Positions 2 through 21,200 of a stretch of DNA of 32,011 bases are shown piece after piece. The stretch lies in the IMG/VR virus record IMGVR_UViG_3300042549_002822, positions 1 to 32,011 of that record; one strand, 5' to 3'. The translations under genes and the position numbers were made by a program. This stretch comes from a virus. Numbering within the stretch: the stretch's first letter is position 1; every line of letters begins with the position of its first letter. A model generated the notes under the pieces. That model had not been told where the DNA came from. It saw only the letters and a list, made by a program, of their open reading frames with translations, and ran no database searches.

Positions 2-2356
2 GCAGCGGAACCCGGCGCAGCAGGCCCCAGTGGGTTCCAGCAGGCCCTCCAGACTGGTGCTCAGATCGCTTCAATCGCATCTCTGTTCGCCGGATCTGAC
101 CGCCGCATGAAGGAGGGCATTGAGCCAATCGGCAAGACCTTTGACGGCCAGACCATCCACAAATACCGCTACAAGAACGACCCTCGCACGCAGATCGGCT
201 TGATCGCGCAGGAGGTCGAGCGCCACCACCCTGATGCTGTGGGCCTCGCAAGGGGCTACAAGACGGTCAACTATGACACGGCCACGAAGGACGCTGCCAA
301 TCGCGGGCACTTCGGGCACGGCGGCATTGCGGGTCGGCACGGGTACGGCACAGACGGCGCTGTACAGCCTTTGCCAGAGTGGGCGCAGGCCGCAGAGCGC
401 ATCCGGCGTGGCGAGGGCACGCTCGGCGACAAAGGGTACGACACTCGCTATGGCGGGGAAAAATATGCCCCGCCAGACAAGCCCCTAAGCCAAATGACCC
501 TTGGCGAGCTTTCTGACTACCAGCGCGATAAGCTGATTCCGGCAACCCGAGGCCAGATCCCCGGCGTTCCTAAGACGCAGGGCACGGGCGCGGCTGGCGC
601 TTATCAGATGACCCACGGGTTCATCAACCAATATGCCCCAGAGTTCTTTGGCCCAAATTATCGGGATGAGACGTTTTTCACGCCCGAGAACCAAGACGCC
701 CTCGCCGAGTTTGTCTACAACAAATACAAGAACGACCCCAAGAAACTGGCGGGCACTTGGGCCACCTTCAGCGGGCTTGACCCGCAGGGTTCTGGCCGGG
801 CGCTGGAGATCCAGCAGGGCCGCAACCCCCGCAACACCACCAACCCCGATGGGTCGGTCAATGTGGCGCGTAACACCGTGGGCGCTCCAGCCGCTGGCCT
901 AGATCCCAGAGGACCAGAGGTCATGGGAGAGATGCCTCCGATTATGGCAGAGCGTCCTGCCGCCCTAGCAGCCGCAGCACTTGGGCGGCCCGATGCTGAA
1001 GCCCAGAAGGCCGGTCTCGCTGGTCCGCAAGGGGCGCAGGAGAGGCCGTTTGGCTACCCTCTCCGCAAAAAGCCTGATTTCATGCAGCGCAATCAGGATT
1101 GGCTCCTGCCTCTGGCAAGCGGCGTCGGCAGCATGTTGGCTTCCAAAAGCCCGTTCCTGCTTAACGCGGTCGGTGAGGGTCTGGTTGGCGCTGCCGAGGG
1201 CTATGGCACCGGCCAGAACCGTCTCTCCGAGATGGAGGAGCGTGCGGCCAATACTGAAAACACATTTGCCGACATTGCACGCAACAGCATTGTCCAGATG
1301 GGTACGGGCTGGGGCCTGATGGTCTATGACAAGATAACTGGCACTTACAAACCTACCCCGGGCTTCTTAATCCTAAAAAATCCTGAGAACTTCCCAGACG
1401 TTGACCCAAGGACGCTCGACAACCTCCGTGAAAAAATGAAACAGAGTGGGCAGCTTGATGTTACTCCATCAGGCGGGGGATCTTCCGCAAGTGCCGCGCC
1501 AGCGCCTGCGAGGTCTGCCGAAGATCCAGCACAACCGCCAACGCCTCGACCTGACGCAAATAACCCGTATCCGCTCGTTTCTGGTGATGCATCCGCTCTG
1601 ATCAAGCGAAACATTGAGACGGCCCAGCGCGCCGCCGCTTCGTCAAGCGTACTGCCCCCTCCAGAAAAAGACATCTTCGCGCCAGTTGAGTCCGAATATG
1701 CTGCCGCCCAAGCTCTCAAGGTGCCGCTGAACGAACTGACCGTAACGATTGCCAACGCGCCGGTCGGTGGTCCTCTGACGCCGATGGTTACCATGTTTGA
1801 GATGGTGGGCAACCAAATCTCTGAGGGCTTGGGCCTTGGCCCTGCGTTCGATCCAGAGGTGATTGCCAATCAAGAGCTTCTCAAAAAACAAATCACGCGC
1901 CTTTCTGCCTTGGCGGCGGAACAAGGAAACCAGACTGCTCAGTCGGCGCTGACCACACTTTCGGCTGGCCTGCCGCAAGAAAAGAACACCGTGCAGGGCC
2001 GGGCCGAAATGATGGCAAGCATCTTGAGCGCGAACCAGCTACGCCTTGATAAGGGGCGAGTATTCTCTCAGTACAAGCAGCTTGCTCAGTCAATTCCCGG
2101 CGGCGAAGCCTATTCGCCCTACGCCGGGACCGGGCTGCAACAGCTTTATGACGCCGAAAACAGCCCCGCAACCTATGCCAAAGAGAAAGAAGTTCTGGCG
2201 CGTATGTTTATGGAACATCCGCCCGGCCATGATGGAACTTGGGCTGAGTTCCTTGCCAAACACTCAAACGACCTGACGCCCGAACAAAGGGCTACCGTTG
2301 ACAAGACGTTTGGCACGAAAGACATCGTCCGATACTTCTCGCAGGAGGCTCAGTAA
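2..2356 (+). CDS. Large virion protein with S74 core and lysozyme-like domain (5' partial)
   Basis: The frame is open from base 2, so the start lies upstream of the window and the ATG at 107 is internal. In order it has a Gly/Ala-rich stretch, an S74 (intramolecular chaperone) core at 95-313 with the Ser-Asp of SDRRMKEGI and the later IAQEVERHHPDAVG, a GHGGIAGRHGYG glycine motif, then a lysozyme/transglycosylase-like segment at about 485-842 (LGELSDYQR, GAAGAYQMTHG, FTPENQDALAEF). The remainder is Ala/Pro-rich and helical. Peptidoglycan-degrading domains on virion proteins usually help DNA entry. I infer an ejection or internal virion protein. It resembles the 1469-aa minus-strand protein at 18297-22706 in the S74 core and placement, but only this one has the lysozyme-like part. 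The next gene starts in the overlapping TAATG. Confidence 0.8.
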   Translation, partial: AAEPGAAGPSGFQQALQTGAQIASIASLFAGSDRRMKEGIEPIGKTFDGQTIHKYRYKNDPRTQIGLIAQEVERHHPDAVGLARGYKTVNYDTATKDAANRGHFGHGGIAGRHGYGTDGAVQPLPEWAQAAERIRRGEGTLGDKGYDTRYGGEKYAPPDKPLSQMTLGELSDYQRDKLIPATRGQIPGVPKTQGTGAAGAYQMTHGFINQYAPEFFGPNYRDETFFTPENQDALAEFVYNKYKNDPKKLAGTWATFSGLDPQGSGRALEIQQGRNPRNTTNPDGSVNVARNTVGAPAAGLDPRGPEVMGEMPPIMAERPAALAAAALGRPDAEAQKAGLAGPQGAQERPFGYPLRKKPDFMQRNQDWLLPLASGVGSMLASKSPFLLNAVGEGLVGAAEGYGTGQNRLSEMEERAANTENTFADIARNSIVQMGTGWGLMVYDKITGTYKPTPGFLILKNPENFPDVDPRTLDNLREKMKQSGQLDVTPSGGGSSASAAPAPARSAEDPAQPPTPRPDANNPYPLVSGDASALIKRNIETAQRAAASSSVLPPPEKDIFAPVESEYAAAQALKVPLNELTVTIANAPVGGPLTPMVTMFEMVGNQISEGLGLGPAFDPEVIANQELLKKQITRLSALAAEQGNQTAQSALTTLSAGLPQEKNTVQGRAEMMASILSANQLRLDKGRVFSQYKQLAQSIPGGEAYSPYAGTGLQQLYDAENSPATYAKEKEVLARMFMEHPPGHDGTWAEFLAKHSNDLTPEQRATVDKTFGTKDIVRYFSQEAQ
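95..313 (+). repeat. S74 core, copy 3 (plus strand)
   Basis: This 73-codon segment runs from the Ser-Asp of SDRRMKE to RGHF. It matches the two minus-strand copies at 21663-21881 and 20532-20750 almost residue for residue (GKTFDGQ, YRYKxD, RTQIGL, AQEVERHHP, AVG, YKTV, YD.AT). In phage tail proteins the S74 core mediates trimer folding and then self-cleaves at the Ser-Asp bond. Here it lacks the usual C-terminal position. Confidence 0.8.
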
Positions 2357-4977
2357 TGGCCGAGTACGACGTAGACAAGATCTTCGGCCAACTGAACCAG
2401 CCGCCTGCCGAACCAGAGCAGCCCGCGATTGCCCGGCCGGGTCAGCCCGCGCCTCGCCCAGCGGCTGTACCGGGGGGGATGCCAGATCTCACGCGGTCGG
2501 TATCCTCCGTGCCCAAAACGCCCACTCCTGCCGCGACTGACTCAATGAACGCCTTGCTCCGCACGCCTCCGCGCGTTGCATATGCGTTGCCGGGCATTTT
2601 CGGCTCTGCCGAGCAGACTGCCATTGATGCGTATTCTGGCCTTATCAGAAACCCATATTATTGGGCCAAGGAGAAACTTGACCTCATCTCCCCAAACGAA
2701 CGCAAGCGTCTGTCTGCGGAGCCGGTATTTTCAAAAAATCTTCCAACGCAAGGCCGCGATATGTACCTCGCTGCGATGGAAAAACTTGGCCGCATCACTC
2801 CGCAGCAACGGGCGGAACGAGAAGCTGTTCCTATATGGGAGAACCCGTCTAAACGTTCAGAGTTTTTCGGCTCGCCGACGATGGCAGGTCGATCTGAAGA
2901 GTTCCGTGAGAATTTTGACGCATCTGGCGTTGGCGGGATCAACTGGGGTAAGCGCCCTGAAACGCCTGAAGGCCGCATCTCGGAAATGGCTTTAGAGGGG
3001 GCGATGCAAGGCATTCCCGGCAGCAAGGGGGTGATTGGGCGCATGGTGACTGGCGGGCTGGGCGCTGGCGCGGGCAAATGGGCCGAGGAGAAATTTCCAG
3101 ACAGCGCAGTCGCCCCAATCGTCATGAACCTACTGGGCAATGCCGCTGGCGGCCTTGGTTCAGCAGTCGCAGGCAAAGTGGTGGGCGATACCGTTGGGGG
3201 TCTGGTTCTGCCGTCTTACGGTCTTAAACGCGATCTGCAAGACGCCATTCGGCAGGATCTTGTTGCTGATCCGCAAACTGCAGAGGCCCTGCGGAAAGCA
3301 GTTGCGGCAGGCTTGCCCGTCACGATGGCTGATTTGGTCACCGGCCCGAACGCCGCAAAACTTATTGAGAGGGGTGCGTACGGCACGCCCGCCAACATTG
3401 CCAAGCAGAAGTCATTGACCGATTTCCTTATTGCTCGGCAAGCCGAAGGCGCTGCTCGTACAAGTGATTTTTTGAAAAGTGAGTTTGGCACACATGGCGA
3501 GTACATGGGTTTGCCCAAAGATGCGACTGGGCAGCTTAATCCTGACCTCAATGTTGCTATTGAGAAGCGGCTTGTTGAGGCGGCCAATAAAGTTGAGACC
3601 ACAAGACTTTACGACGCCATGCGGAGCAATCCGGCAGCAGGCTCGATATCTACCTCAGTGTTTGACACGGTCAGGCCCGACTTCCTTGAGAACCCGCTTT
3701 TGAAAGATGCGATGGCAAAAGCCAGCGTGTCAGGGCAGTCTGATCCTTCCCGAGGAATTATTGCCCCGAGGTTTATTCGTGGCCCATATGGCACTCAAGA
3801 GGTGCCCGGCAATCTTGCGTTTTGGGATCAGGTCAAGCGCGAGCTAGACCGTACGGCAAAACTTGGTGAAGCGGTGCCTGATGCAAAGGCTGCGGAGGCA
3901 ACAATCACCGGAGCAAAGAATGCAAAGGCAGAGCTTGTCGGCGTTCTGGACAAAGTTGTCCCTGAATATGAAATTGCCCGCGATAGGGCAAGTGAAGTAT
4001 TTGGGGCCGCAAGCGCCCCAGAGGCTGGCGAACTTTTCTTGAAGACAACGAATGATTTCAAGGTAGAGCAGATTGCCAACGCAATGAAGAACTATTCACC
4101 TGAGCAGAGGGAGCTATTTGCTGTCGGGTACGCCAGAGGTCTTTTGAAACGAGTTAACTCTGGCGATGTGAAGGGCCTTTACACGACACTAACCAAGCCG
4201 GAAACGCGGGATCGTACAATCGCAGCCATAGGGGAAGACCGTTACAATTCTATTCTCGGCAGGGTCGCTCAGGAGCGCCTTCTCGCTGAAACTCCGACCG
4301 TTGGCTTGCCAAAAACCGCCCGTGCAGATGCGCGTGCCGCCGGTATCACCGCTTCACTTACTGGTGGCGCAACATATGGGCTTACGACATTGGCAGGGGG
4401 CGTGCCGTTCACAACTGACATTGGCCCTCTTGCCGTTACCGCCGCATTTGCTGGTGCTGGGGCGGCTCTTTCCGGCCTAAAAAGTGTTGCCGAGCATCGT
4501 ATTGGCGAACGGCTCATCAGGTTGGTTACCGATACGAAAAACCCAAAGGCAGCTAAGGAACTTGGCAACCTTCTTAACAGCCAGCCCTCTGTTATGCGTA
4601 TTTTCAACAAAATGACGCTGTCGGCCAATCAGGCCGCCCAGCAGGCGCGGAGGCAGTTTGTAACGAGGCCTGCCGAAGAAGACGACCGCCAACCTCGGGA
4701 ACCTGCAAAGCCTCAAACACCTGCCGACAAAATGAGCGAGGCGACCAGAAGGCTGATGCAGGATGTCGGCATGGGCGGACCGCAGGCCCAAGCCTCTGGC
4801 GGCCGCGTAGGCTACCGCTCAGGCGGCCGCATCCTCGACCACGGCAGCAAGGCTGACGCACTGGTCCGCGCTGCCGAGGCCGCCCGTAAGACCATCAGCG
4901 GCACCACAGAGCCTCTGCTGGATCTCCCCGACGAGCATGTGGTGAAGGCTCTAGCTGTCGCGGGGGAAGCCATTTAA
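2356..4977 (+). CDS. Large putative ejection/internal virion protein, 873 aa (paralogue of 16047-18287)
   Basis: The start is fixed by TAATG overlap with the upstream stop and by GGAGG eight bases before it. The N-terminus is Pro/Ala-rich. A Gly/Ala-rich, possibly membrane-active stretch lies near residues 215-290, a long helical middle follows, and a second Gly/Ala-rich hydrophobic stretch lies near 660-715. The last 61 residues (4792-4974: GGRVGYRSGGRILDH, then TTEPLL, PDE, VVKAL) are about three quarters identical to the end of the 746-aa minus-strand protein, although the bodies are much more divergent. I infer a virion protein acting with its upstream partner in DNA ejection; no enzymatic motif is seen. 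Its last 27 bp overlap the end of the convergent RuvC-like gene. Confidence 0.7.
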   Translation: MAEYDVDKIFGQLNQPPAEPEQPAIARPGQPAPRPAAVPGGMPDLTRSVSSVPKTPTPAATDSMNALLRTPPRVAYALPGIFGSAEQTAIDAYSGLIRNPYYWAKEKLDLISPNERKRLSAEPVFSKNLPTQGRDMYLAAMEKLGRITPQQRAEREAVPIWENPSKRSEFFGSPTMAGRSEEFRENFDASGVGGINWGKRPETPEGRISEMALEGAMQGIPGSKGVIGRMVTGGLGAGAGKWAEEKFPDSAVAPIVMNLLGNAAGGLGSAVAGKVVGDTVGGLVLPSYGLKRDLQDAIRQDLVADPQTAEALRKAVAAGLPVTMADLVTGPNAAKLIERGAYGTPANIAKQKSLTDFLIARQAEGAARTSDFLKSEFGTHGEYMGLPKDATGQLNPDLNVAIEKRLVEAANKVETTRLYDAMRSNPAAGSISTSVFDTVRPDFLENPLLKDAMAKASVSGQSDPSRGIIAPRFIRGPYGTQEVPGNLAFWDQVKRELDRTAKLGEAVPDAKAAEATITGAKNAKAELVGVLDKVVPEYEIARDRASEVFGAASAPEAGELFLKTTNDFKVEQIANAMKNYSPEQRELFAVGYARGLLKRVNSGDVKGLYTTLTKPETRDRTIAAIGEDRYNSILGRVAQERLLAETPTVGLPKTARADARAAGITASLTGGATYGLTTLAGGVPFTTDIGPLAVTAAFAGAGAALSGLKSVAEHRIGERLIRLVTDTKNPKAAKELGNLLNSQPSVMRIFNKMTLSANQAAQQARRQFVTRPAEEDDRQPREPAKPQTPADKMSEATRRLMQDVGMGGPQAQASGGRVGYRSGGRILDHGSKADALVRAAEAARKTISGTTEPLLDLPDEHVVKALAVAGEAI

Positions 4978-5427
4978 GCAGAACCACCGGCCAAGAAGGG
5001 CGGCGTCCGCGCGGCCGTCGTCCTTCACCCGCCGGAACTTGTCGGCGGCCCCCGGCCAGAGCTTCTGGCAGAGCGCCCGGCACGCGCCCTTGTCTGCCCC
5101 TACCCCCATCTGACGCTTCCATGTTTGAGGCAGGACATGGTCGTAGGGGATGGACAGCGCAGCGCAGATCCCCTCGATCACACCAGCCCCATACCCGAAG
5201 TTAAACATACTGGTCACGCCCTGACCCGGCCGGGCACCCACTCGCTCAATGACCAGATAAGCAATGTCCGCCGACCGGCTGTCGAGGATCACGGCCAGTT
5301 GATTTGCCGCAACCCTCGTCTTCCCGTCGTGCTTGATGGTCGGCATGTCCACGACCTCGATAAGGACGCCGTTGTCACTCAAGAAGGCGATGGCTCCCGT
5401 GTACCCGGGGTCGATGGCGCAGATCAT
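4951..5427 (-). CDS. RuvC-like Holliday junction resolvase
   Basis: This 158-aa protein has the RNase H-fold resolvase pattern. The N-terminal strand MICAIDPGYTGAIAFL carries Asp6, LVIERVGARPGQG carries Glu61, and the end has KDDGRADAALLGRW with Asp137 and Asp141, matching the four acidic residues of RuvC enzymes. TSMFNFGYGAGVIEG and LPQTWKRQMGV are also typical of phage RuvC-like proteins. It would cut branched DNA made during phage recombination and before packaging. Its ATG overlaps the upstream gene stop (ATGA), so the two form a small operon. Its stop codon lies inside the antisense 3' end of the 873-aa gene. Confidence 0.85.
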   Translation of the reverse strand: MICAIDPGYTGAIAFLSDNGVLIEVVDMPTIKHDGKTRVAANQLAVILDSRSADIAYLVIERVGARPGQGVTSMFNFGYGAGVIEGICAALSIPYDHVLPQTWKRQMGVGADKGACRALCQKLWPGAADKFRRVKDDGRADAALLGRWFCLNGFPRDS

Positions 5428-5651
5428 CGCAGGGGCTTCAGCTTGCAGAGCAGCACGATCCGGTCCCGATCATACCGATGCACCATGGCGACGGTGCCCC
5501 GGTCCCGGCTCTCCAGCACCAGCGGCACATCGCGCGGGTCGAGATGCCAGCGCCAGATGTAGGTCGGCTCGCATTTCTCAGCCACGATCCGCCATTGGCT
5601 GACCGACAGTTCTTTCCGGTGTTTCGCTACCTGTTGTGTCGATATCCGCAT
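5424..5651 (-). CDS. Small conserved-looking phage protein, 75 aa, unknown
   Basis: The start MRISTQQVAK at 5651 is preferred because a perfect AGGAGGT (5657-5663 on the complement) precedes it; the frame is open further upstream but without a better site. The protein is charged and rich in Arg and Trp (SQWRIVAEKCEPTYIWRWHL) with a C-terminal beta pattern (GTVAMVHRY, DRIVLLCKL). It is translationally coupled to the RuvC-like gene by a 4-nt overlap, which suggests a role in early DNA metabolism. I do not recognise the family. Confidence 0.7.
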   Translation of the reverse strand: MRISTQQVAKHRKELSVSQWRIVAEKCEPTYIWRWHLDPRDVPLVLESRDRGTVAMVHRYDRDRIVLLCKLKPLR

Positions 5652-5669
5652 CGGCCACCTCCTGTAGGG

Positions 5670-5675
5670 ATTGTA
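5670..5675 (-). promoter_or_regulatory. Possible -10 box for the RuvC operon
   Basis: TACAAT on the minus strand lies 19 bp before the start codon at 5651. No good -35 is visible 17 bp upstream, and the implied transcript would start almost at the ribosome site. This is a weak call. Confidence 0.25.
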
Positions 5676-5698
5676 GCCATGCCGCAAAAATAAATCAC

Positions 5699-5784
5699 GA
5701 AAAATGAAAATAGGCGGTTGACCTCCCAGATTGCGAGGCGTATATCTCCTTTCACACAAGGCCGATGGCCGCAGGAGATACGAA
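5699..5784 (+). promoter_or_regulatory. Early promoter and leader, copy 1
   Basis: TTGACC at 5718-5723 and TATATC at 5741-5746 are separated by 17 bp, a good sigma70-type promoter. An A-rich upstream element GAAAAATGA begins at 5699. The leader holds GGCCGATGGCC (5760-5770), a small perfect inverted repeat, immediately before GCAGGAG. TTGACCTCCCAGATTG and GGCCGATGGCCGCAGGAGA recur at 7016-7078. Confidence 0.75.
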
Positions 5785-6057
5785 ATGACCAACGCAAACC
5801 TCGCCGACCGCTACGCCGCCCTCAAGGGCCAGATCGACGCTCTCACCGCCGAACTCGACGCGGTCAAGGCTTCCATCAAGACCCTCGGCGTCCCCACCCT
5901 CGAAGGTGACCACTGCACCGTCACCCTCTCACTCTCCGAGCGGTCCTCGCTCGACACCGCCGCCGTCAAGAAGCTCCTGACCGCCGAGCAGATCGCGGCC
6001 AACACCAAGGTCTCGCTGGTCGAGACGATCCGCATCAAGGCCAAGGTGGCCGCCTAA
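5785..6057 (+). CDS. Small phage protein with N-terminal coiled coil, 90 aa
   Basis: The start is the ATG at 5785, eight bases after GGAGA; the frame is open upstream but without a site. The N-terminus (ADRYAALKGQIDALTAELDA) is a heptad-type helix. A compact part follows (LEGDHCTVTLSLSERSSLD, then VKKLLTAEQI, NTKVSLVETIRIKAKV). Similar small proteins occur in alphaproteobacterial phages from memory, but I know no function. It is the first gene behind the strongest early promoter and is followed by a UUCG hairpin. Confidence 0.75.
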   Translation: MTNANLADRYAALKGQIDALTAELDAVKASIKTLGVPTLEGDHCTVTLSLSERSSLDTAAVKKLLTAEQIAANTKVSLVETIRIKAKVAA

Positions 6058-6064
6058 TCACCCC

Positions 6065-6082
6065 GGGGGACTTCGGTCCCCC
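6065..6082 (+). other. Intercistronic UUCG hairpin 1
   Basis: GGGGGAC TTCG GTCCCCC forms a perfect 7-bp stem with a TTCG tetraloop just after the stop of the 90-aa gene. There is no T tract, so it is more likely an RNA stability, processing or partial attenuation element than a full terminator. The flanking sequence (ATCACCCCG before, TAGGAGACC before the next ATG) recurs at 7352-7397. Confidence 0.7.
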
Positions 6083-6104
6083 AACACTCTCTAGGAGACC
6101 AGAT

Positions 6105-6485
6105 ATGACCCAGACCATCCGCCTAACTGAGAAAGAAGCCGAAGTCATTCGCCACCGCGCCACCCAGCCCGACTGCATTGCCGAGGTCTTCTCGGAAACG
6201 CTGGACGGCTGGACCACCGAGCGGGTCGAGACGCTGCTCGCCCAGATCATTGCCGACACCCCGGGCAAGGGCCTGCGGATCACTTTCAACCCGGGCACCG
6301 TTGATCATGTTCTGCTGCTGACCGAACTGCTGGAAGGCAACACGACGGGCGATGCCGCCGACGATTATCTGGCTTACTACGACATTGATGAGCCTGAGTA
6401 CCGGATTGGCGTTGCTTTGCGTCGGGCCTGCGACAGCGTTGTACGCAAGTTTCATGCGGCGGGTATCGTCGCCAGCATTCGATAA
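6105..6485 (+). CDS. Hypothetical early protein, 126 aa
   Basis: The ATG at 6105 follows TAGGAGACCAGAT. The protein is acidic with an N-terminal helical part (IRLTEKEAEVIRHRA) and a middle segment rich in Asp and Tyr (DAADDYLAYYDIDEPEYRIG) before a C-terminal helix (VALRRACDSVVRKFHAAG). No catalytic motif or known domain is recognised. It sits in the first early transcription unit, 11 bp before the next gene. Confidence 0.65.
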   Translation: MTQTIRLTEKEAEVIRHRATQPDCIAEVFSETLDGWTTERVETLLAQIIADTPGKGLRITFNPGTVDHVLLLTELLEGNTTGDAADDYLAYYDIDEPEYRIGVALRRACDSVVRKFHAAGIVASIR

Positions 6486-6496
6486 GGAGACTTACC

Positions 6497-6769
6497 ATGA
6501 CCGACTATATCCTGTTCCCCCGCGCCATCGACCTCGTCTACTACATCGCGGACCGGATCGGCTCCGACTACGAACTGGCCGACGCCGTGTACGAGGATCT
6601 GTCCGCCGAGGACATCATCGACTTCGTCGCTGTTGGCTCACAGACGGGCTTCCGCCTGCCTGCCGACCTCGACCTGCTCGCCGCCGTTGAGCGCACGTTG
6701 CAGCGCCAGCAGGACATCGCGGAAGCCCAGATTGCATGGAGCCTCGAAAATGATCCGCTTAACGGCTGA
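6497..6769 (+). CDS. Hypothetical acidic early protein, 90 aa
   Basis: It starts MTDYILFPRAIDLVYYIADR after AAGGAGACTTACC, a good ribosome site. The protein is strongly acidic and mostly helical (ELADAVYEDLSAEDIIDFVAV, split by short turns). Small acidic early phage proteins are often DNA mimics or inhibitors of host factors, but nothing here proves that. The next gene starts 20 bp inside its end. Confidence 0.65.
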   Translation: MTDYILFPRAIDLVYYIADRIGSDYELADAVYEDLSAEDIIDFVAVGSQTGFRLPADLDLLAAVERTLQRQQDIAEAQIAWSLENDPLNG

Positions 6770-6992
6770 AGCCAACAATCCCGCCCTTCGGGGCCACCGG
6801 GCCAGCCGCATTCTGCGGTTCGGCCCGGGCGGCCGCTTTCAGGTCTATGCCATCCATACCCGGTTCGCCGATGTCGAGTGGTGGGTGGCTGATACCAACA
6901 TCACCTACGGGGATGGGCGGCCGTGGATCATCCGCCAAGAACCCAGCTTCGACGAGGCCATTTCGACCGTTCTGGCCGGTGTCGAAAAATAA
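6750..6992 (+). CDS. Hypothetical early protein, 80 aa
   Basis: The start MIRLTAEANNPALRG at 6750 is chosen because it leaves a short overlap with the previous gene and gives a coherent protein; the frame upstream is Ser/Arg-rich antisense-like sequence. The middle has an alternating beta pattern (SRILRFGPGGRFQVYAIHTR, VEWWVADTNI), suggesting a small beta fold, then an acidic helix. No family recognised. It closes the first early unit before the second promoter. Confidence 0.6.
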   Translation: MIRLTAEANNPALRGHRASRILRFGPGGRFQVYAIHTRFADVEWWVADTNITYGDGRPWIIRQEPSFDEAISTVLAGVEK

Positions 6993-7015
6993 TCAAGTTA
7001 GGCTGATTTATTTTC

Positions 7016-7078
7016 TTGACCTCCCAGATTGGGTGGCTTAGAACTCATCTCACGGCCGATGGCCGCAGGAGACACGCC
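7016..7078 (+). promoter_or_regulatory. Early promoter and leader, copy 2
   Basis: TTGACC (7016-7021), 17 bp, TAGAAC (7039-7044), then GGCCGATGGCC (7054-7064) and GCAGGAGA before ATG. The first 16 bases and the 19-base leader block match copy 1 at 5718-5784, while the -10 and spacer 3' half differ. The AT-rich sequence before it includes GAAAAATAATCAAG. Confidence 0.7.
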
Positions 7079-7351
7079 ATGAACCAGTTCACTTTCGCCA
7101 CCGACGCCGACACCATCGGCGATGTCATCGTCACCGCCGCCATCAACGGCCTCGACTGCATCATCGTCTCGGTCCTGTTCGGCGATGTCACCATCGACCC
7201 TGCCACGGTCGATCTTGATGGCTGCACCCTTGAGGCAGTGCTGGTTGAGCGCGCCGAGGATCTCGCCGCCGACAAGGGCCTCTTCGACGAAGACGCCTAC
7301 GTCCCCGAGCGCAAGCACTGGGAGGTCCGCGAGGACCGCTTCGGCTACTGA
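7079..7351 (+). CDS. Hypothetical acidic early protein, 90 aa
   Basis: The ATG at 7079 follows the copied leader and GCAGGAGACACGCC. The protein is very acidic with a long hydrophobic beta-rich centre (VIVTAAINGLDCIIVSVLF, then GDVTIDPATVDLDG) and an acidic C-terminus (ERAEDLAADKG, FDEDAY). It is not similar to the 90-aa protein behind promoter copy 1, although both have the same length and same flanking control sequences. Function unknown. Confidence 0.7.
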   Translation: MNQFTFATDADTIGDVIVTAAINGLDCIIVSVLFGDVTIDPATVDLDGCTLEAVLVERAEDLAADKGLFDEDAYVPERKHWEVREDRFGY

Positions 7352-7359
7352 TCAACCCC

Positions 7360-7375
7360 GGGGGCTGCGGCCCCC
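7360..7375 (+). other. Intercistronic hairpin 2
   Basis: GGGGGC TGCG GCCCCC gives a 6-bp stem with a four-base loop directly after the stop codon. It is followed by a C-rich run and CCTAGGAGACC before the next ATG, as at hairpin 1. No T tract. Confidence 0.65.
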
Positions 7376-7397
7376 ACCCCCCCCTAGGAGACCTGAC

Positions 7398-7637
7398 ATG
7401 ACCACTTTTGCAGAACGCACCATTCGCGCCCGCGCCTTCACCGCCCTCGTTGATGCTTCCATTCGCAGCATCGAGACCGAGGATCGCTACATCGCTGCAC
7501 GCAAGGCTGCCGCTTTTGAGCACATCGTCGAGGAGCTTGCCCGCCTCAACCCCGAGGCTCTTGCCCTCATCGAAGACATTTTCGTTCCGTTCTATCAGGA
7601 CCGCCTTGACGCGCAGAAGGAGACTGAAAATGGCTGA
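7398..7637 (+). CDS. Hypothetical early protein, 79 aa
   Basis: The ATG at 7398 follows TAGGAGACCTGAC. The protein is helical throughout (FAERTIRARAFTALVDASI, RKAAAFEHIVEELARL, NPEALALIEDIFVPF). No family recognised. It is the first of six genes joined by short overlaps; the next start lies 8 bp inside it. Confidence 0.65.
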   Translation: MTTFAERTIRARAFTALVDASIRSIETEDRYIAARKAAAFEHIVEELARLNPEALALIEDIFVPFYQDRLDAQKETENG

Positions 7638-7845
7638 ATGCACCGACATTGAACGCGCCCTGCTGGACGCCCTCCGCGAGGATCTTTTTGCCACCTCGTT
7701 CTATGATCGGGCGGTGGAGGCTGGAGCGCCCGCCGATCTGGCGGCCAAGCTGCACACCTACGCCATGGAGGCCGAGGCTATCCTTGATGCCGCCATGGGC
7801 CGCTACGCTGATGAGATCCTTGACGGGGATAGGGACGCACAATGA
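7630..7845 (+). CDS. Hypothetical early protein, 71 aa
   Basis: It starts MAECTDIERALLDALREDLF at 7630, overlapping the previous gene by 8 bp and with AAGGAGACTG as ribosome site. It is acidic and alpha-helical (EAEAILDAAMGRYADEIL). Unknown function; translationally coupled on both sides. Confidence 0.65.
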   Translation: MAECTDIERALLDALREDLFATSFYDRAVEAGAPADLAAKLHTYAMEAEAILDAAMGRYADEILDGDRDAQ

Positions 7846-8117
7846 AAAAAGAACCAGTCAAAAAGCCCCACCAGCAGTTTGCCGTGCGCGCTGGCAGCCT
7901 CCGCAAGATCATGTCGGGCCAAGAATTCGCTGCAGGCGTGGCCGATGGGCGTATCGGCGTGCCGTGGCCCAAAAGCATCGACATCACATGGGACTATGAG
8001 CGGGGCCGGATGTTCGGCGCCCTCTACCCAAATGTCCCCGTGAAGAATGGGCGGGCTGTCAGCGAAAGGGCGTACCGTCTGTGCGCCTTGGCCGTCATTG
8101 AGAAGGCCATCATATGA
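7842..8117 (+). CDS. Hypothetical early protein, 91 aa
   Basis: The start lies in an ATGA overlap with the previous stop. The N-terminus is Lys-rich (MKKEPVKKPHQQF), followed by a mixed segment with KIMSGQEFAAGVADGRIGVP and SIDITWDYERGRMFG. Basic overall, unlike its acidic neighbours. No domain recognised. Confidence 0.6.
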   Translation: MKKEPVKKPHQQFAVRAGSLRKIMSGQEFAAGVADGRIGVPWPKSIDITWDYERGRMFGALYPNVPVKNGRAVSERAYRLCALAVIEKAII

Positions 8118-8296
8118 CCAGAGAGGCTGACCATGCCACGCTGGTGCGGGCCTTGGCGGCGCCACGGGTGACCGTCGCCGCCATTGCCGACCAGTTCGGC
8201 GTCACTGAGCGCACGGTGTACCGCTGGCTGGCCGGTAGGCACCGGATACCCAAGGCCGTCATCACCATCCTCAACATGGAGCAGACAGATGCTTAA
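8114..8296 (+). CDS. Small helix-turn-helix protein, 60 aa
   Basis: It starts in an ATGA overlap. Residues 19-46 (VTVAAIADQFGVTERTVYRW then LAGRHRIP) are a clear helix-turn-helix of the Cro/resolvase-like type, and little else is present. It could be a regulator of the early promoters or operators. The Ala-Ile-Ala, Gly-Val-Thr and Tyr-Arg-Trp positions fit the usual turn and recognition helix. Its target is not known. Confidence 0.75.
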   Translation: MTREADHATLVRALAAPRVTVAAIADQFGVTERTVYRWLAGRHRIPKAVITILNMEQTDA

Positions 8297-8546
8297 CGAG
8301 AACAATGAGGTTGACCAGCTTGAACTGTTGGAGAACGTCCGCACCCTGCTGGGCGTCATGGCCCTGGCCCATGCCAACTTCGGCGAATTCATGGACTGGC
8401 TGTCAGAATATCTGACGTGCGCTTTGCTTGACCCGGTCGTGACCATTGAGACCATGAGCGCGGACATCGCGTCGGCGCAGCAGGAGATCCACGACCGGAG
8501 CGCCAGCATCTTGGCCCAAATGCCGACCGCGGGAGGCGTCCATTGA
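8289..8546 (+). CDS. Hypothetical early protein, 85 aa
   Basis: It starts MLNENNEVDQLELLENVRTL at 8289, 8 bp inside the HTH gene. It is helical and acidic with a hydrophobic middle (LGVMALAHANFGEFMDWLSE, YLTCALL). Unknown family. Its stop overlaps the TTG start of the next gene. Confidence 0.6.
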   Translation: MLNENNEVDQLELLENVRTLLGVMALAHANFGEFMDWLSEYLTCALLDPVVTIETMSADIASAQQEIHDRSASILAQMPTAGGVH

Positions 8547-12590: not shown

Positions 12591-12788
12591 ATGTCTTACG
12601 TTAACATTTCGGTGATTAACGACGATGCGGTGACGGTTCAAAAGCACCCGTCCGACAATAGCGTTGTGATCCGGTTCGGTTGGCCGACCTATGTGTCGCT
12701 GACCCGCGATGAAGCCCTCAAGCTGGCTGCGGACCTGACCGCGCTGTGCGCCCCGGTCGAAGCCGTTGCTGAAGAGGCAGCAGAGTGA
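12591..12788 (+). CDS. Small hypothetical protein, 65 aa
   Basis: It starts after GGGAGGAATAATC, which lies in the end of the gapR-like gene. The sequence has two or three strands (MSYVNISVINDDAVTVQ, NSVVIRFGWPTYVSL) followed by one helix (TRDEALKLAADLTAL) and an acidic tail. The fold pattern resembles the 56-aa protein at 8543-8713. Function unknown. Its stop overlaps the GTG start of the exonuclease gene. Confidence 0.65.
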   Translation: MSYVNISVINDDAVTVQKHPSDNSVVIRFGWPTYVSLTRDEALKLAADLTALCAPVEAVAEEAAE

Positions 12789-13570
12789 CCCCCATGGAAC
12801 TGGAGCGCCGGCGCAGTAGCGTCGGTGCTTCAGACGCCACGATAATCATGACCGGCACGCCTGAAGAGGTTTTCACTCTCTGGGGGGTCAAAACCGGACG
12901 GAAGCCGTATAGCGATCTGTCCGACGTGTTGCCGGTGCAAATAGGGATCGCCACCGAGAGCCTCAATTTGGATTTTGCACAGCGCAAACTGGGGATGACT
13001 ATCACTCGCAGCGTGGGCGTTCAGACGCATCCTGATACTCCGTGGCTGACGGCCACGCCTGATGGCTGGCTGATGGACGAGCGGTGCCCGGTGGAAGCCA
13101 AGCACGTCAACCAATTTAGCAAAATTGACGATGTCGTGGCGAAATACGCGGCGCAGATCCACGTCCAGATGATGGTGACAGACGCCCATCAAGCCTACCT
13201 GTCGGTGATCATTGGGACCATGACCCATGAGATCAGGCGGGTCCATTTTGACTGGGCGTACGCTGCCGAAGTCCGCGACCGCTGCGAGACGTTCTGGCGG
13301 TACGTCCAGACAGACACCCCACCTCTAGGCTGGGCACCGGCTGGCCCGCCGGTTGAGTACACAACCATGCGGACAGTTTCCATGCAGGGACACAATGAGT
13401 GGGCCGTTGCAGCCGACGATTGGCTGGGCACCCGGCTTTCAGTGGCTTTGCATGATGCGGCCAAGGCCACGATAAAGGGGCTGGTCGAGGCTGATGTCCG
13501 CAAAGCCGAGGGCCACGGTATTACGGTAACCCGCGCTAAGAACGGCGCGATCACGATCAAGGAGGCATGA
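12785..13570 (+). CDS. YqaJ-like recombination exonuclease, 261 aa
   Basis: The GTG start at 12785 overlaps the previous stop (GTGA) with GAGG upstream; an ATG at 12794 is an alternative. Motifs of the lambda-exonuclease/YqaJ family are in order: SSVGASDA near the start, GIATESLNLDFA (Glu58), LTATPDGWL (Asp93), CPVEAKHV (Glu104, Lys106) and YAAQIHVQMMV (Gln124). These are the PD-(D/E)XK metal site and the family glutamine. It would resect double-stranded ends so that the ERF protein encoded next can anneal the single strands. Confidence 0.88.
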   Translation: MTPMELERRRSSVGASDATIIMTGTPEEVFTLWGVKTGRKPYSDLSDVLPVQIGIATESLNLDFAQRKLGMTITRSVGVQTHPDTPWLTATPDGWLMDERCPVEAKHVNQFSKIDDVVAKYAAQIHVQMMVTDAHQAYLSVIIGTMTHEIRRVHFDWAYAAEVRDRCETFWRYVQTDTPPLGWAPAGPPVEYTTMRTVSMQGHNEWAVAADDWLGTRLSVALHDAAKATIKGLVEADVRKAEGHGITVTRAKNGAITIKEA

Positions 13571-13571
13571 C

Positions 13572-14207
13572 ATGAGAACATCTGAGAGCATCTCCGCTCT
13601 GGCCGCTGCCCTTGCCAAGGCCCAGGCGGTTATTGAGGGGGCCGTCAAAGACAGAGCCAATCCGGCATTTCGCTCAAAGTATGCCGATTTGTCCGCCGTC
13701 TGGGATGCCATCCGCGGGCCGCTGACCTCGAATGGCCTGAGCCTCGTCCAGATGCCCGATATAGACGATGGGGAGCCGGTGCTGGTCACCCGCCTGCTGC
13801 ATGAGAGCGGTGAGTGGCTGGAAGGGACGTATCTCCTGCGCCCGATCAAGGAAGACCCCCAGGGCTACGGGTCTGCAATCACCTACGCCCGGCGCTATGC
13901 CGCCATGGCGGTGTGCGGCGTGGCTCCAGAGGACGATGACGGCAACGCAGCGTCTGGTCGAACGGCGGTGGCTGCGATCAAGGATGACGTTAAGCCGAAG
14001 CCCCCGGCAATCCCGGCGGAACTGAAGGCCGAGGCCGACAACCTTCGGGCGATCATTGATGACAGCACCGGGGAGATTGCCCTCAAGTTGATCATGAAGA
14101 ACAGCGCGGGCCTGCTGGAGCGCCTGGGGAAATACTCTCCATCAGCGGTCAAATGGCTTGAAAATCACGCAGAGAAGCACCTCGCTATGCTGCTGGAGAA
14201 GGAGTGA
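13572..14207 (+). CDS. erf: ERF-family single-strand annealing protein, 211 aa
   Basis: AAGGAGG precedes the ATG. The N-terminal 125 residues show the ERF pattern: ALAKAQAVIEGAVKDRANP, FRSKYADLSAVWDAIRGPL, SNGLSLVQMP, LLHESGEWLEG and GSAITYARRYAAMAVCGVAP with EDDDGN. ERF proteins form rings that anneal homologous single-stranded DNA in phage recombination and genome circularisation. The C-terminal part is a Pro/Lys linker and helices. It lies one base after the exonuclease and 4 bp before the SSB-like gene, a standard exonuclease/annealase/SSB set. Confidence 0.92.
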   Translation: MRTSESISALAAALAKAQAVIEGAVKDRANPAFRSKYADLSAVWDAIRGPLTSNGLSLVQMPDIDDGEPVLVTRLLHESGEWLEGTYLLRPIKEDPQGYGSAITYARRYAAMAVCGVAPEDDDGNAASGRTAVAAIKDDVKPKPPAIPAELKAEADNLRAIIDDSTGEIALKLIMKNSAGLLERLGKYSPSAVKWLENHAEKHLAMLLEKE

Positions 14208-15642: not shown

Positions 15643-15781
15643 GATGTACCGCCGTTCATCGGGGTGGGATGAGACAGACGGCGCCTTGTTCCAGCCTATG
15701 CCCGATTGGGCCATGGACAAGGCGGCACGTTTGTTTGCATCAGGGTGTCGTATCGTGCATTCTGCGCCGGGGACAGAATGA
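15584..15781 (+). CDS. Small hypothetical protein with GTG start, 65 aa
   Basis: The GTG at 15584 lies six bases after GGAGG. The product reads (M)TPEQQILWMARILST, YRRSSGWDETDGALF and ARLFASGCRIVHSA. Rich in Trp and mixed helix; no family recognised. The start is chosen for its ribosome site over an upstream ATG in Arg-rich sequence. Confidence 0.55.
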   Translation: MTPEQQILWMARILSTPWVEMYRRSSGWDETDGALFQPMPDWAMDKAARLFASGCRIVHSAPGTE

Positions 15782-15810: not shown

Positions 15811-16050
15811 GTGCGCTTCCTTGTGACCATGAACATGGCGTCAAAGTCCAATAACCTGGTGCATCAGGTCATATGCGATTACCCTGTAGAAAGCATTGAA
15901 GAATTCCTCGAAGAATTAACCAACGAAGACTTCATTCTTTGCGAGCATTACTACAGGGAAAGCCCGAACAAAGTCACGCTCTGGACGCTTAAAGGCAAGA
16001 TGATCCTCAATACATCCCTTATTGGCAAGGTGATGGAGTTTGTGGACTAG
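15811..16050 (+). CDS. Hypothetical protein, 79 aa
   Basis: The GTG start at 15811 has GGAG seven bases before it; an ATG at 15793 adds six residues but has a misplaced site. The product reads (M)RFLVTMNMASKSNNLVHQV, then ESIEEFLEELTNEDFILCEH and KVTLWTLKGKMILNTS. It looks like a small alpha/beta fold. Unknown family. Its TAG stop is in the palindrome CTAG that also supplies the stop of the convergent 746-aa gene. Confidence 0.65.
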   Translation: MRFLVTMNMASKSNNLVHQVICDYPVESIEEFLEELTNEDFILCEHYYRESPNKVTLWTLKGKMILNTSLIGKVMEFVD

Positions 16051-18287
16051 ATATTCTCATTTGCCACGCTCAAAGCCTTAACCACGGCCTCATCCGGCAT
16101 CTCCAGAAGCGGTTCGGTCGTTTGGCTGATCCGCTTCTTTGCCGTCTCGGCTGCCCGCACCAAGGCGCCAGCCTGGCTTGCGTGATCAAGGATGCGGCCG
16201 CCAGCGCGATAGCCTACACGACCGCCGTCAGCGCGGCCCCCGGCTTGTTGTTGTGCCTGGCGGGCCTCGCGCACTTCTCTGTCTGGGTTCTCAGCCATCA
16301 AGGACGCTGTCGGGTTCACCATGAGCCGGCGGAATGTATCCGCATCGCCCCGGCTGTTTGTCACTGCGTCCTGATATGCGCGGGACCATCTACTGATCTG
16401 ACGGGCACTGACCGGATTTGACAGATATTCAGACAGCCCTCTTGTCCCTACAAGGCCTACAAGCGTTTCCGCCATGTTTGTGTAGAGGCCCACGCCGCCA
16501 CCCGCCATAACAATATTCTGGGCGGTGCCTGAAGGATTGGTAAAGCCCTCAAGCTTCTGGCCCAATTTGGCAACATTTGTAATGTCTTCAATTGCGTCTC
16601 TGGTTGGGCTTCCCGTTGGACCAAACATAATGTCCCGGCTTGCGGGGGGCATTTTGTTGAGAGATGTCGCAAAAGAACCTGGGCTAAATTCATTTTTAGC
16701 CGTGCGGCCCATTTGAGAGATTGTCCCAGACAAAAATTCGTTCCATTGATCAGGCGGCACAATGCTCTTCGCCGTCCGCAGCAAGCGCAAATCAGCGCCT
16801 CTTGTAGATGAAGCCGCGGTCAGCAAGCGCCCAAACACGGCTTCCGCCGGAACTTGGTCAGGATCTACATTTGGGCCGCCCATAAGCTTGGCAAGGCGCG
16901 CATTTGTGGCTTTGATTTGCCTTGTAAAAGAATTTGCCTCAGTCCAGGCTTGTTTGGCGGCAGGACCGCCAGCATTCTCTGCTGCTTGCCCAAGATCATC
17001 AGTCAAAGCGGCATAAATGCGTTTCAATTCGCCATTTGAAATGCCTTGGCTGGTCATGGCTTGAGGGTTTTTTAAAAGCTCGCCAACCCTGCTTCTTAGC
17101 CCCTTAACACCCTCATATGTTAGAGGAGTAGAAAGCGCAGACTCAATAAACTTGACCGCAGGAATTGGAGAATTGTAAAGGCCCTGCGCGTCATATTCTT
17201 GCTGCAACGTTTGAGCTATTCGATTTGCATTAAGCAATGGTGTTGTGGCGTTGGGGTTAGTGATGGCGTTATCAACAGCATCATATTTTGCCGCAATCGC
17301 ATTACTTGTCTTTGGCCCCATCCAGTCAACCAAGGCCGTCTTTGCCGCCTGTCCACCTTGTTCTGCGGTTCCGCCGCCCAAGCGAGAAACTAGCCCCGCT
17401 GCAGACGCCTGCAGTTCACCCAATGACCTTGCGGACGCTTGCGACAAGGGTTCACCGCCCCAAGGAATGATCTTGAGCGTTTGGCCCGCACGCTGAACAA
17501 GCTGGGACGGGTTCACGGCGGCGTTGGGCAAAGAAACGCCCAGACGGTTCGCAGAAGCCGCAACGGAACTGGGGTCATATGAAAACCGCGAACCCAAAAG
17601 GTCGGTGCCAACATTGGCACTTAAGCCGCCAACCAGATTTCCTAGTACGTTTGCGGCGGGCTTCAGAGGATCTGGGGCAAAAGTCTCTGCAGTGGTGCCA
17701 AGCGCACTTCCGGCAAACTCCCCGGTTGCTTGGCTGGCTGTCTGACCGACCGTCGTGGGTGAGCCCTTGCCAATAGTCTGGATGACGCCGGCAGTGGTGG
17801 GAGCCATCCTTGAAATTGCGCTTGGAAGCTGGGCTGCAACGCCCCTTGCTGCAAGTGGGATTGAGAGAGCCAATGGGACAGCCGCCCCAGACGATTGAAG
17901 CACGTTCTCAATATTGCTTCTGGGCTGAAATCTTGGCTGGTCAACTTGCATGAGGCTCTTGAGCCAGTCGCTGCCCATGACAGTGTCAGCAGATGACTTC
18001 GGGGCATATCCCTCTGGCAGGGTTTTCCTCATAGCGTAGCTGACGGCGTCAGGGAGGGCGCCCACCACGTTTGCCAAGCCTCGATTGAAACCTACGAGAG
18101 GCGATATCGCAGTGGACTCAGTCGTAGGCCGCATGGCGGCCGCAGCGGGAACGTCTGGGGTGACCGTCCCGCTGTCTATGGCAGCTTGATTAACGTCCAG
18201 CGTGGGCTTGGGCGTGGGCTGCGCGGCAGGCGAGGGCTTGGCGGAATACTTTGCCCAGGGGCTGTTTGGATCGACTTCGGTTGCCAT
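16047..18287 (-). CDS. Large putative ejection/internal virion protein, 746 aa (paralogue of 2356-4977)
   Basis: GAGGA lies before MATEVDPNSPWAKYSAKPSP. A Pro-rich N-terminus is followed by Gly/Ala-rich, partly hydrophobic stretches (AAVPLALSIPLAARGVAAQ; NVLGNLVGGLSANVG), a long helical middle, and a hydrophobic segment near residue 610 (IVMAGGGVGLYTNMAETLVG). The last 62 residues (16050-16235: GGRVGYRAGGRILDH, TTEPLL, PDE, VVKAL) nearly match the end of the 873-aa plus-strand protein. I infer a virion protein that enters or lines the path of DNA ejection, working with its upstream 1469-aa neighbour. No enzyme motif seen. It is the last gene of the long minus-strand operon. Confidence 0.7.
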   Translation of the reverse strand: MATEVDPNSPWAKYSAKPSPAAQPTPKPTLDVNQAAIDSGTVTPDVPAAAAMRPTTESTAISPLVGFNRGLANVVGALPDAVSYAMRKTLPEGYAPKSSADTVMGSDWLKSLMQVDQPRFQPRSNIENVLQSSGAAVPLALSIPLAARGVAAQLPSAISRMAPTTAGVIQTIGKGSPTTVGQTASQATGEFAGSALGTTAETFAPDPLKPAANVLGNLVGGLSANVGTDLLGSRFSYDPSSVAASANRLGVSLPNAAVNPSQLVQRAGQTLKIIPWGGEPLSQASARSLGELQASAAGLVSRLGGGTAEQGGQAAKTALVDWMGPKTSNAIAAKYDAVDNAITNPNATTPLLNANRIAQTLQQEYDAQGLYNSPIPAVKFIESALSTPLTYEGVKGLRSRVGELLKNPQAMTSQGISNGELKRIYAALTDDLGQAAENAGGPAAKQAWTEANSFTRQIKATNARLAKLMGGPNVDPDQVPAEAVFGRLLTAASSTRGADLRLLRTAKSIVPPDQWNEFLSGTISQMGRTAKNEFSPGSFATSLNKMPPASRDIMFGPTGSPTRDAIEDITNVAKLGQKLEGFTNPSGTAQNIVMAGGGVGLYTNMAETLVGLVGTRGLSEYLSNPVSARQISRWSRAYQDAVTNSRGDADTFRRLMVNPTASLMAENPDREVREARQAQQQAGGRADGGRVGYRAGGRILDHASQAGALVRAAETAKKRISQTTEPLLEMPDEAVVKALSVANENI

Positions 18288-18296
18288 TTTCAGTCC

Positions 18297-21200
18297 TCAC
18301 TGCCGTGTCTCAGGAACCTGTATTCCATGGGTCTTGCGGTAGTCTGCAGGGGAAAGCTCTTTCTGTGTCAAAGGTCTGTCGAGCTTCTCAGGCTGGTATT
18401 GTGGGCCAAGGTAAACAAACGTGTCGCCAGGGTTTATGCCCACGGCGGCGTATGCTTCAGCCGCCTGGGGGTCCATACGATCTGGCAAGACGTATGTTGC
18501 GCCAACGGTCATCTTGTCAGGCGGGGGAACGTCCATACCCCTGAAGGTGCCGATCTGCGAGGCCGCCGTCTTGATGAAATCATCCATCGGGTTGGCTTCG
18601 GTCCAGGCGTTCTGGAAGGCCGACAAACTGGTCCAGCCCTGCGTCTGAGCCACGCGCCAATCTCGCTGGAACTGGTCCGCCGCCATGAGCGTGCCAAGCT
18701 GCTCGCTGACAAGTTTGTGCGCGGCAACAGGGTCAAGATTTAGTGTTGCTGACCCAGACTCACTCATTTCGGCAAATTCAGATTGCGTGAACTGTGGGTT
18801 GAGGGCCTTCAAGTTCTCCATAGTGGCGTTGACTTTGTTCTTCTGGAACCAGTTTGCTGCCGCCACCGCATCCATATCGCCGCCCAAAATCTGCTGCGCG
18901 ACTTCAGGGGCGCCTATAGAAGTGGCGTATTCAGCAATAAGGCGGGCTGTGTCTGGCACCCTGCCGGCAGCAACGGATTTATACGCCGCAGCCATAGCAA
19001 AAGAGCGGTGGATTGACGTTTGAATGTTTGCCTGATTGCCCAGTGTCGCTTTAGCCAAAGCGGCATCTTGCTCAATCTGCTGGGCCTGTGCCGGCGAAGG
19101 TTGTTGCTGAACGGCTCCCGGCGGCAAATTCACTTGGGGAAGGCCGCCGCCAGCAGGAGCTTGGGGGATGGCCGTTTTGATTGTGCCAAACGATGGATCT
19201 ACTTCCGCTTTAGTACGAGTAGGCGGCTGTTCTTCCGGCGTGACGGGAGTAGCTTCAACAGGGGCTGTCGCGCTGCCCGCGGCCGGTCTGCCGCCTGCCG
19301 CTGGCGCCGCGCCGGGAGCGCCGCCGGGAGCGCCCGCAGGGGCTCCTCCAGCGCCAGGCGGTATCCGAACAACACTGCCGTCAGGCATAATTCTGGTGCC
19401 GGTCTCAATCTCAACCCCGGCCCGTGCCCGGAGTTCTGGCGCAATAAAGGGAAGTGCAGCACTGCGTTCTGCGGTAGTCCTGGAAGCGGCTTCTATGGCT
19501 ACCTGACGTGCCTTGGCTTCAGCAAAACCAGGGATAGGTACGACTTGCCCATCTTTATAGACAACGCCGCGCTCCATGATGCCGTTCATGGAGTTGCTGA
19601 TGGTCTCAGCCGCAGCGAATTCTCCTGAAGCCAAGGCCGCCTTATAGTTTTCCACAAGCCTGGGCATATTTTGATTAAGGGGGACGCCCTGCCAGAACGG
19701 ACTATTGCCGGCAGGCATTGCGCTAGCCGCGGCTGCTGCGGGCGAAATTGCGGGCGGCATTGCCGGCGCAACGGGCGCAGCGCCAGGCGCGGCGGGAGAG
19801 GCCGGGGCAGTAGCTGGCTGGGCTCCGCCCAAGCCTGGAGCGGCACCGCCGCCAACGGCAGGGCCTCCAGCCAGGCCGGGAGCGGCTGCTGTGGGTGACG
19901 GCATCTCTGCAGGCATTGACCCGCCAAGGCTTGGGGCAGCGCCTCCAGCCGGGACAAGGCCGCCTGCAGTCGGGATTTCAGGTACAGTCGTAGATCCGCC
20001 ACCAATAGTGGGGAAGCCCCCTAGCGACTTCTGGAATGCGTCAGCAAAATCTTGGCCACCCAAGATATCATTATAAGTTGTTTGAGGCGCGCCAGTAGCC
20101 ATTGACTCGCCCAGCCTTATTTTCCTGAGCATTGAGGTCAGTTCAGCACCGGCTTTCAGGCGTTGCAGAGCAACTTGTTGAGCCGTCAGGCCAAGCCTGC
20201 CCTGCTCAAGGCCGAACTGGCGCATCTGCTGGGCGGACTGAGCGCCCGCACCCAAACCGGCGGCAAGGGCTACGCCAAGTTCTCGCGTCGGGGCCGTGCC
20301 CATAGCCGCAATGCCTGAAACCAGCGGGATCAGGTTGTCAGCCTTTGATAGCTTATCAAGCGCACCCGGCACCGCCTCTACACCCCGGCGGATGAAGCCT
20401 GGCGTGGCGTTGGCAATGCGGTCAAAGAGCCCAGGATCTCTGGCCTTATCAACTGCATCTTGAAGCTGTTGGTCTGTAATTGGAGTTCCACCAACATCAT
20501 AACCGCGCCGACCAGCCAAACCGCCCGAGGCAAAATGCCCCCGCTTGGCTGCATCCTTGGTCGCAGCGTCATAATCAACCGTCTTGTAGTCCCCCGCACT
20601 GCCAACAGCATCAGGGTGATGGCGCTCGACCTCCTGCGCCAACAGCCCGATCTGGGTGCGGGGATCGCCCTTATAGCGATACGAATAGACCGACTGCCCA
20701 TCAAAGGTCTTGCCGATGTGCCGGATGTCTTCTTTGAGGCGTTTGTCTGAAAGAAACGCCAAGAAAGGCAAGGCCGAAGCGATTGAAGACCCAATCCCGG
20801 CAAGCCCGCCAGCGGCGCCGGCGGCCCCAGCAGCGCCAGCGGCAGCAGTCCCTGCACCGGCTGCGCCTGCAGCGGCACTGCCAAGGCCAGCGGCAGCACT
20901 GCCTGCACTGCCAAGGCCAGCAGCCGCTCCCCCTGCCTCGCCAAGGGCGCCAGCGAGCTTTGCGGCCTCCAAGCCTTCCTTGGCTGGGCCAAATAGCGAA
21001 CCGATGTCTTGGCCCATATTGATTAGACCAGAGGTCGTGCCGGCTATCTGACCAAGGCCGCCATCGCCACCGCCACTGGTAGGGGCCGACTGAGATGCGG
21101 GGGCTGAAGACTTAGCTCTGTTGGCGTCAGCCTCAGTATCTTTGACAACATCAGACAGAACAGATCCTTGAGACTGCCCGTAAGGCAAAGATCCGCCCAA

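Follow-up and report, generated by a model that had tools for sequence, protein, structure and literature searches.

A repeated promoter-leader block upstream of unrelated small genes in an uncultured tailed phage, a candidate unit of gene exchange

Background

An open question in phage biology is how small new genes are acquired in a form that can be expressed immediately. It is raised here by a 32,011-base virus record (the window, meaning the whole stretch of DNA that we analysed), in which two 90-amino-acid genes lie behind similar promoter-like and leader sequences. Cassettes of this sort have already been described in T4-type phages and mycobacteriophages, as far as the accounts cited below go. 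A portable promoter-leader with exchange of genes at the start codon would, if true, be a testable answer beyond these two groups, and would provide a sequence handle by which small genes newly gained by phages could be found in metagenomes.

Two similar blocks precede two unrelated genes

The blocks in front of genes 1 and 2 (P1 and P2; Table 1) are identical at 53 of 63 aligned bases, between window positions 5718-5784 and 7016-7078. Identity is complete over the first 16 nucleotides from the -35 element and over 18 nucleotides of hairpin and ribosome site; seven mismatches and a four-base gap lie between these exact stretches, and three more mismatches adjoin the ATG. The sequence TTGACCTCCCAGATTG occurs at 5718 and 7016, and GGCCGATGGCCGCAGGAGA at 5760 and 7054. 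When up to three mismatches are allowed, GGCCGATGGCCGCAGGAGA has no further match in the window (0.03 expected), while TTGACCTCCCAGATTG has four matches for 0.32 expected, the two beyond P1 and P2 carrying three mismatches each.

Table 1. Features of the repeated blocks, the genes behind them and the candidate recombination genes (window coordinates)
Feature	Position	Strand	Description
P1 promoter-like block	5718..5746	+	-35 TTGACC, 17-bp spacer TCCCAGATTGCGAGGCG, -10 TATATC; promoter predicted from sequence and alignment with P2
P1 leader	5760..5784	+	GGCC-GAT-GGCC hairpin/palindrome, GCAGGAGA ribosome site; reaches the base next to ATG
Gene 1	5785..6057	+	90 aa; family has members at 64 viral loci; matches weakly the C-terminal region of the RecE-like exonuclease profile phrog_434
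Hairpin 3' of gene 1	6065..6082	+	GGGGGAC-UUCG-GUCCCCC, without U-run
Linker TAGGAGACC, ribosome site	6092..6100	+	Precedes the next gene (6105)
P2 promoter-like block	7016..7044	+	TTGACC, 17-bp spacer TCCCAGATTGGGTGGCT, TAGAAC; predicted from sequence and alignment
P2 leader	7053..7078	+	C-GGCC-GAT-GGCC-G hairpin/palindrome and GCAGGAGA, reaching ATG
Gene 2	7079..7351	+	90 aa; without relative in the collections searched
Hairpin 3' of gene 2	7360..7375	+	GGGGGC-UGCG-GCCCCC, without U-run
Linker TAGGAGACC	7385..7393	+	Precedes the gene at 7398; lineage joint 7351-7382 just upstream
RecE-like exonuclease and Erf-like annealing protein	12785..14207	+	Candidate machinery for short-homology exchange; in the part identical to G004

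Is this likeness more than that of two ordinary promoters, and does it extend to the genes? The 80-nucleotide regions upstream of the two genes align with a score of 35, and none of 47,761 shuffled pairs got to 22. The upstream flanks of P1 and P2 score 8.0, below the 95% point of the background (9.5). The proteins give a blastp E value of 0.049 over 43 amino acids, which is not significant, and the DNA of the genes aligns at 14.0, slightly above its 95% point of 12.0. With so strong an alignment of the blocks and with unrelated flanks and proteins, we take the likeness of P1 and P2 to go beyond chance and not to stem from a recent duplication that included the genes. A preliminary description of this locus had reported the extent and shared sequences of the two blocks, a 17-bp spacer in both copies, two different 90-amino-acid genes, and a similar hairpin and TAGGAGACC site after each gene; our re-reading of the window agrees with it on all these points, the two promoter-like pairs being TTGACC-17-TATATC and TTGACC-17-TAGAAC.

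Taken singly, several parts of the block are unremarkable. Both copies have a weak -10 hexamer, and scanning for sigma-70 promoters under strict settings found none at P1 or P2. The leader hairpins alone are of ordinary stability (z scores of -1.24 and -0.95) and have no U-run after them by sequence; they start 13 nucleotides past the -10 element in P1 and 8 in P2. The inverted repeat in the window's spacers has 4-bp arms only. An Rfam search gave no match, and a tRNA search found none. Behind the genes, TAGGAGACC is found twice in the window (0.14 expected). As neither 3' hairpin carries a U-run, these are not ordinary intrinsic terminators; together with the TAGGAGACC linkers, they count here as candidate parts of the unit only.

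None of the relatives of gene 1 resembles gene 2, and no relative of gene 2 was found in viral contigs. Among isolated phages, neither tblastn with the two genes nor megablast with window positions 4800-8400 returned a match. The leader pattern and the gene 1 profile had no match in bacterial or archaeal genomes, and for this reason we leave the host unnamed. We also observed that the weak match of gene 1 covers positions 275-348 of phrog_434, and that the exonuclease at 12785-13570 matches positions 60-258 of the same profile. Gene 1 may be a stand-alone form of the C-terminal part of this RecE-like exonuclease.

Gene exchange behind conserved leaders in other phages

The preliminary description had proposed a search for the leader in other phage genomes. 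Elsewhere in the viral collection, the 19-mer leader is found only in two uncultured phages, once in L006 and twice in L007, with unrelated genes behind it. A variant, GGCCGAGGCCGAGGAGACAACGAC, lies in front of another L007 gene, and a relaxed leader pattern retrieved nothing further from the viral contigs. A promoter-like pair spaced by 17 bp stands before every one of these leaders, including the GGCCGAGGCCGAGGAGACAACGAC variant. The leader type is thereby associated with six different genes on three contigs (the window, L006 and L007), whose proteins have no significant mutual similarity. Exact matches to TTGACCTCCCAGATTG also occur in L001-L005.

Two pairs of sister phages are informative as to what happens behind such leaders. 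L006 and L007 are 79% identical over 1.2 kb, in an alignment that runs through the leader, and 3' of the gene both have the hairpin ATTCCGCAATTCGCC...GGCGGATTGCGGAAT, within 52 bp that are 96% identical. Between the common leader and the 3' hairpin lie unrelated genes, of 194 amino acids in L006 and 177 in L007. In a second lineage, L118 and L094 have promoters and leaders that are 92% alike, and L118 carries an additional 81-amino-acid gene at the boundary of leader and start codon, ahead of a gene that in L094 comes straight after the leader. These comparisons demonstrate, at the sequence level, that genes have been swapped or inserted behind a kept leader in sister phages.

A sister leader, CAGGGGCRYGRTGCCCCG (GGGGC-RYGRT-GCCCC), precedes seven unrelated gene families. 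In two comparable CAGGGGCRYGRTGCCCCG families, the promoter is of one type throughout a genome and of another type in another genome. The gene 1 family, for its part, has many different leaders in front of it in related phages. The preliminary description had spoken of fixed control parts with exchangeable genes; exchangeability is supported by the six genes and by the two sister pairs, whereas fixity has to be given up, given the many leaders of the gene 1 family and the change of promoter type between genomes.

As a separate observation, the hairpin and ribosome site GGGGCACGGTGCCCC lies between two genes at position 15751 of G011, with no recognisable promoter, and is seen downstream of a gene in L122.

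Position-specific leader hairpins across related contigs

In 67 related contigs, we counted 26 clusters of similar upstream regions before non-homologous genes, after removal of the pairs that came from overlapping starts of one gene. By our reading, about two thirds of these clusters are of a promoter type. Promoter-like matches upstream of starts number 91, for about 11 expected. A GC hairpin between the -10 element and the ribosome site is present at 34 of 185 non-redundant promoter-led starts, for 7.3 in shuffled sequences (maximum 14 in 200 shuffles); the other 151 have no leader hairpin. The enrichment is sharpest 7 to 10 nucleotides past the -10 element, which corresponds roughly to predicted positions +1 to +4: 26 hairpins start there, for 1.4 in shuffled sequences (maximum 6). 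In 11 of the 58 better promoters, the spacer holds a palindrome whose arms reach 6 or more, for 0.35 after shuffling (maximum 2 in 300 shuffles). AU, GC, CG and UA are all seen at one stem pair in a hand-aligned set of 12 hairpins; this set was picked by hand for forming hairpins, so that the covariation is supporting evidence only.

Other arrangements were seen among these contigs. In L125/L126 (MW202675, positions 31660 and 32577), L058, L065, L066 and L080, promoters lie inside a long palindrome, GACACCSTGCATCGTACGATGTASGGTGT. Its arms covary and overlap with the -35 and -10 elements. In MW202675, a T run follows the palindrome, which therefore looks like a combined promoter and terminator. 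In L055, L097 and L103 (minus strand), the repeat consists of the end of a small gene and a ribosome site (CCGTGCTGGCTGAACTGGAGG..ATG), and joins different small genes.

A candidate expression unit and the alternatives

How could such a block work? Our preferred reading, to which we give a probability of roughly 0.55, is that the block serves an uncultured tailed phage as a reusable expression unit, made of a promoter, an operator-like spacer, a 5' hairpin and a ribosome site, with genes exchanged behind it by recombination. The start and timing of transcription, operator binding, mRNA protection and the part played by a recombinase are inferred. The promoter, of the host-sigma type, would be read by host RNA polymerase; through the operator-like site in the 17-bp spacer, all copies would come under the joint control of a phage regulator. 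A 60-amino-acid helix-turn-helix protein encoded at 8114-8296 is one candidate regulator. The transcript would begin just 5' of the short GC hairpin, with a strong ribosome site directly after it, and then the start codon. The most likely role of this 5' hairpin is to protect the mRNA against decay that depends on the 5' end, and to leave the ribosome site accessible. This protective role is argued from known 5' stem-loops, which hinder RppH and stabilise some mRNAs (PMC3997798).

Genes behind the block would be swapped or inserted by phage annealing recombination of the Erf/RecE type. Such exchange is possible since the block recurs both within and between related phages; Rad52-like phage recombinases, Erf included, accept short and diverged homology (PMC3945230). 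The RecE-like and Erf-like genes of the window possibly belong to another phage than P1 and P2, being to the right of the joint described below. We hold as doubtful the more specific proposal that the leader hairpin and ribosome site form a dedicated socket, into which the phage's own annealing recombinase would precisely insert or replace genes between the leader and the 3' hairpin, with operators uniform in each genome and differing between genomes.

Among the alternatives, the one that fares best, although we consider it unlikely, is that a phage regulator uses the leader palindrome GGCC-N3-GGCC, just past the transcription start, as its DNA operator, any RNA hairpin being incidental. Eight of the nine occurrences of GGCCN3GGCC in the window, G002 and L006 are in promoter-leader regions. 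Two of the four in G002 fall in a promoter spacer, where they would not be transcribed from that promoter, and the GGCC arms stay constant while the loop changes (GAT, AGT, AGA). However, hairpins of many stem sequences occupy this transcript position in related phages, and one stem pair, in the hand-picked set, comes in four pair types. Moreover, the distance from the spacer site to the palindrome is unequal, at 35 bp in P1 and 31 bp in P2.

Could the contig itself be misleading? Two phage lineages are joined at 7351-7382, at the hairpin/TAGGAGACC linker 3' of gene 2. From 7382 to its right end (32011), the window is exactly G004; left of 7351 it is of a different lineage, 75-82% similar to G004 where alignable. 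The only differences in the aligned stretch are five at 7358-7381, in the 3' hairpin region, so that a repeat common to both phages does not simply account for the joint. Either natural recombination or chimeric assembly may have produced it, and on account of the latter possibility we have given up reading it as a demonstration that phages recombine at the hairpin linker. Large virion proteins at 107-4977 and 16047-22706 have S74 chaperone and C-terminal domains in common; they are in opposite orientation and flank the replication region. Such related-domain proteins on both sides of the joint call for caution over the contig. It is nonetheless improbable that the pattern is in part an artefact of a metagenome chimera, with two phages joined at a hairpin/ribosome-site linker: P1, gene 1, P2 and gene 2 are all left of the joint and the repeat pair is unaffected by it, G002 has three such leaders in one contig, and the five differences from G004 speak against it as well.

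A simple tandem duplication of a promoter-gene segment, whose genes have since diverged past recognition, would account for two genes of the same length lying 1.3 kb apart and for gene DNA that aligns slightly above background. We judge it still less probable, in view of the insignificant protein match, the low score of the upstream flanks, the alternation of exact blocks with a diverged middle, and a gene 1 family in which nothing is like gene 2. Nor do we see the recent local duplication, genes included, that the preliminary description had set against its own reading: genes and flanks are unrelated, and substitutions are concentrated between the two exact blocks, as would be expected of older copies under selection.

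Chance or convergence, that is, two ordinary strong promoters and ribosome sites both fitting the host consensus, could explain the consensus-like TTGAC and AGGAG of the two blocks, but is very hard to reconcile with an exact 16-mer and 18-19-mer that include non-consensus bases, with the shuffling result, and with the recurrence of the 19-mer ahead of L006 and L007 genes.

Comparison with known systems

The closest known kinds of element are the PeSLs of T4-type phages and the SAS/ESAS motifs of mycobacteriophages; as far as these have been described, the block looks similar to both, and the defining features of each differ from those seen here.

PeSLs (promoter early stem-loops; Arbiol 2010 and Comeau 2014, via PMC4503421) combine a repeated early promoter with a stem-loop, and the proposal described in that account is that related phages shuffle small variable genes by means of them. 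The block likewise has a predicted promoter and a stem-loop in a repeated intergenic cassette, and gene shuffling at the cassette is seen in relatives (replacement in L006/L007, insertion in L118/L094). Unlike PeSLs, which are described there as composite promoter-terminator motifs of T4-type myoviruses, the hairpin here is in the 5' leader, downstream of the promoter and directly before the ribosome site, and by sequence no U-run follows either the leader or the 3' hairpins, as it would a terminator stem-loop. A search with the structural protein at 24926-27862 gave phage stabilization proteins from Pelagibacter phages, Roseobacter phages and uncultured phages; none of the best matches is T4-type, and T4-type genes were not seen.

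In cluster K mycobacteriophages, many small genes share two motifs: SAS is a conserved start-associated ribosome-site motif, and ESAS a SigA-like promoter that recurs between genes, has 17-18 bp spacing and includes an imperfect inverted repeat (PMC11373665, PMC12699233). The repeated motif and 17-bp spacer of the window are alike, but its spacer repeat has the short arms noted above. ESAS inverted repeats are 15-17 bp, whereas the leader hairpin here is 11-13 nucleotides, in a different phage group. The SAS consensus GGGATAGGAGCCC has no match in the window at up to two mismatches.

Stabilising 5'-terminal stem-loops are known from individual host or engineered transcripts (reviewed in PMC3997798). 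The leader hairpin resembles them in being short and in lying at or near the predicted 5' end, at +1 to +4 in 26 of the 34 hairpin leaders; unlike them, it recurs across phage genes.
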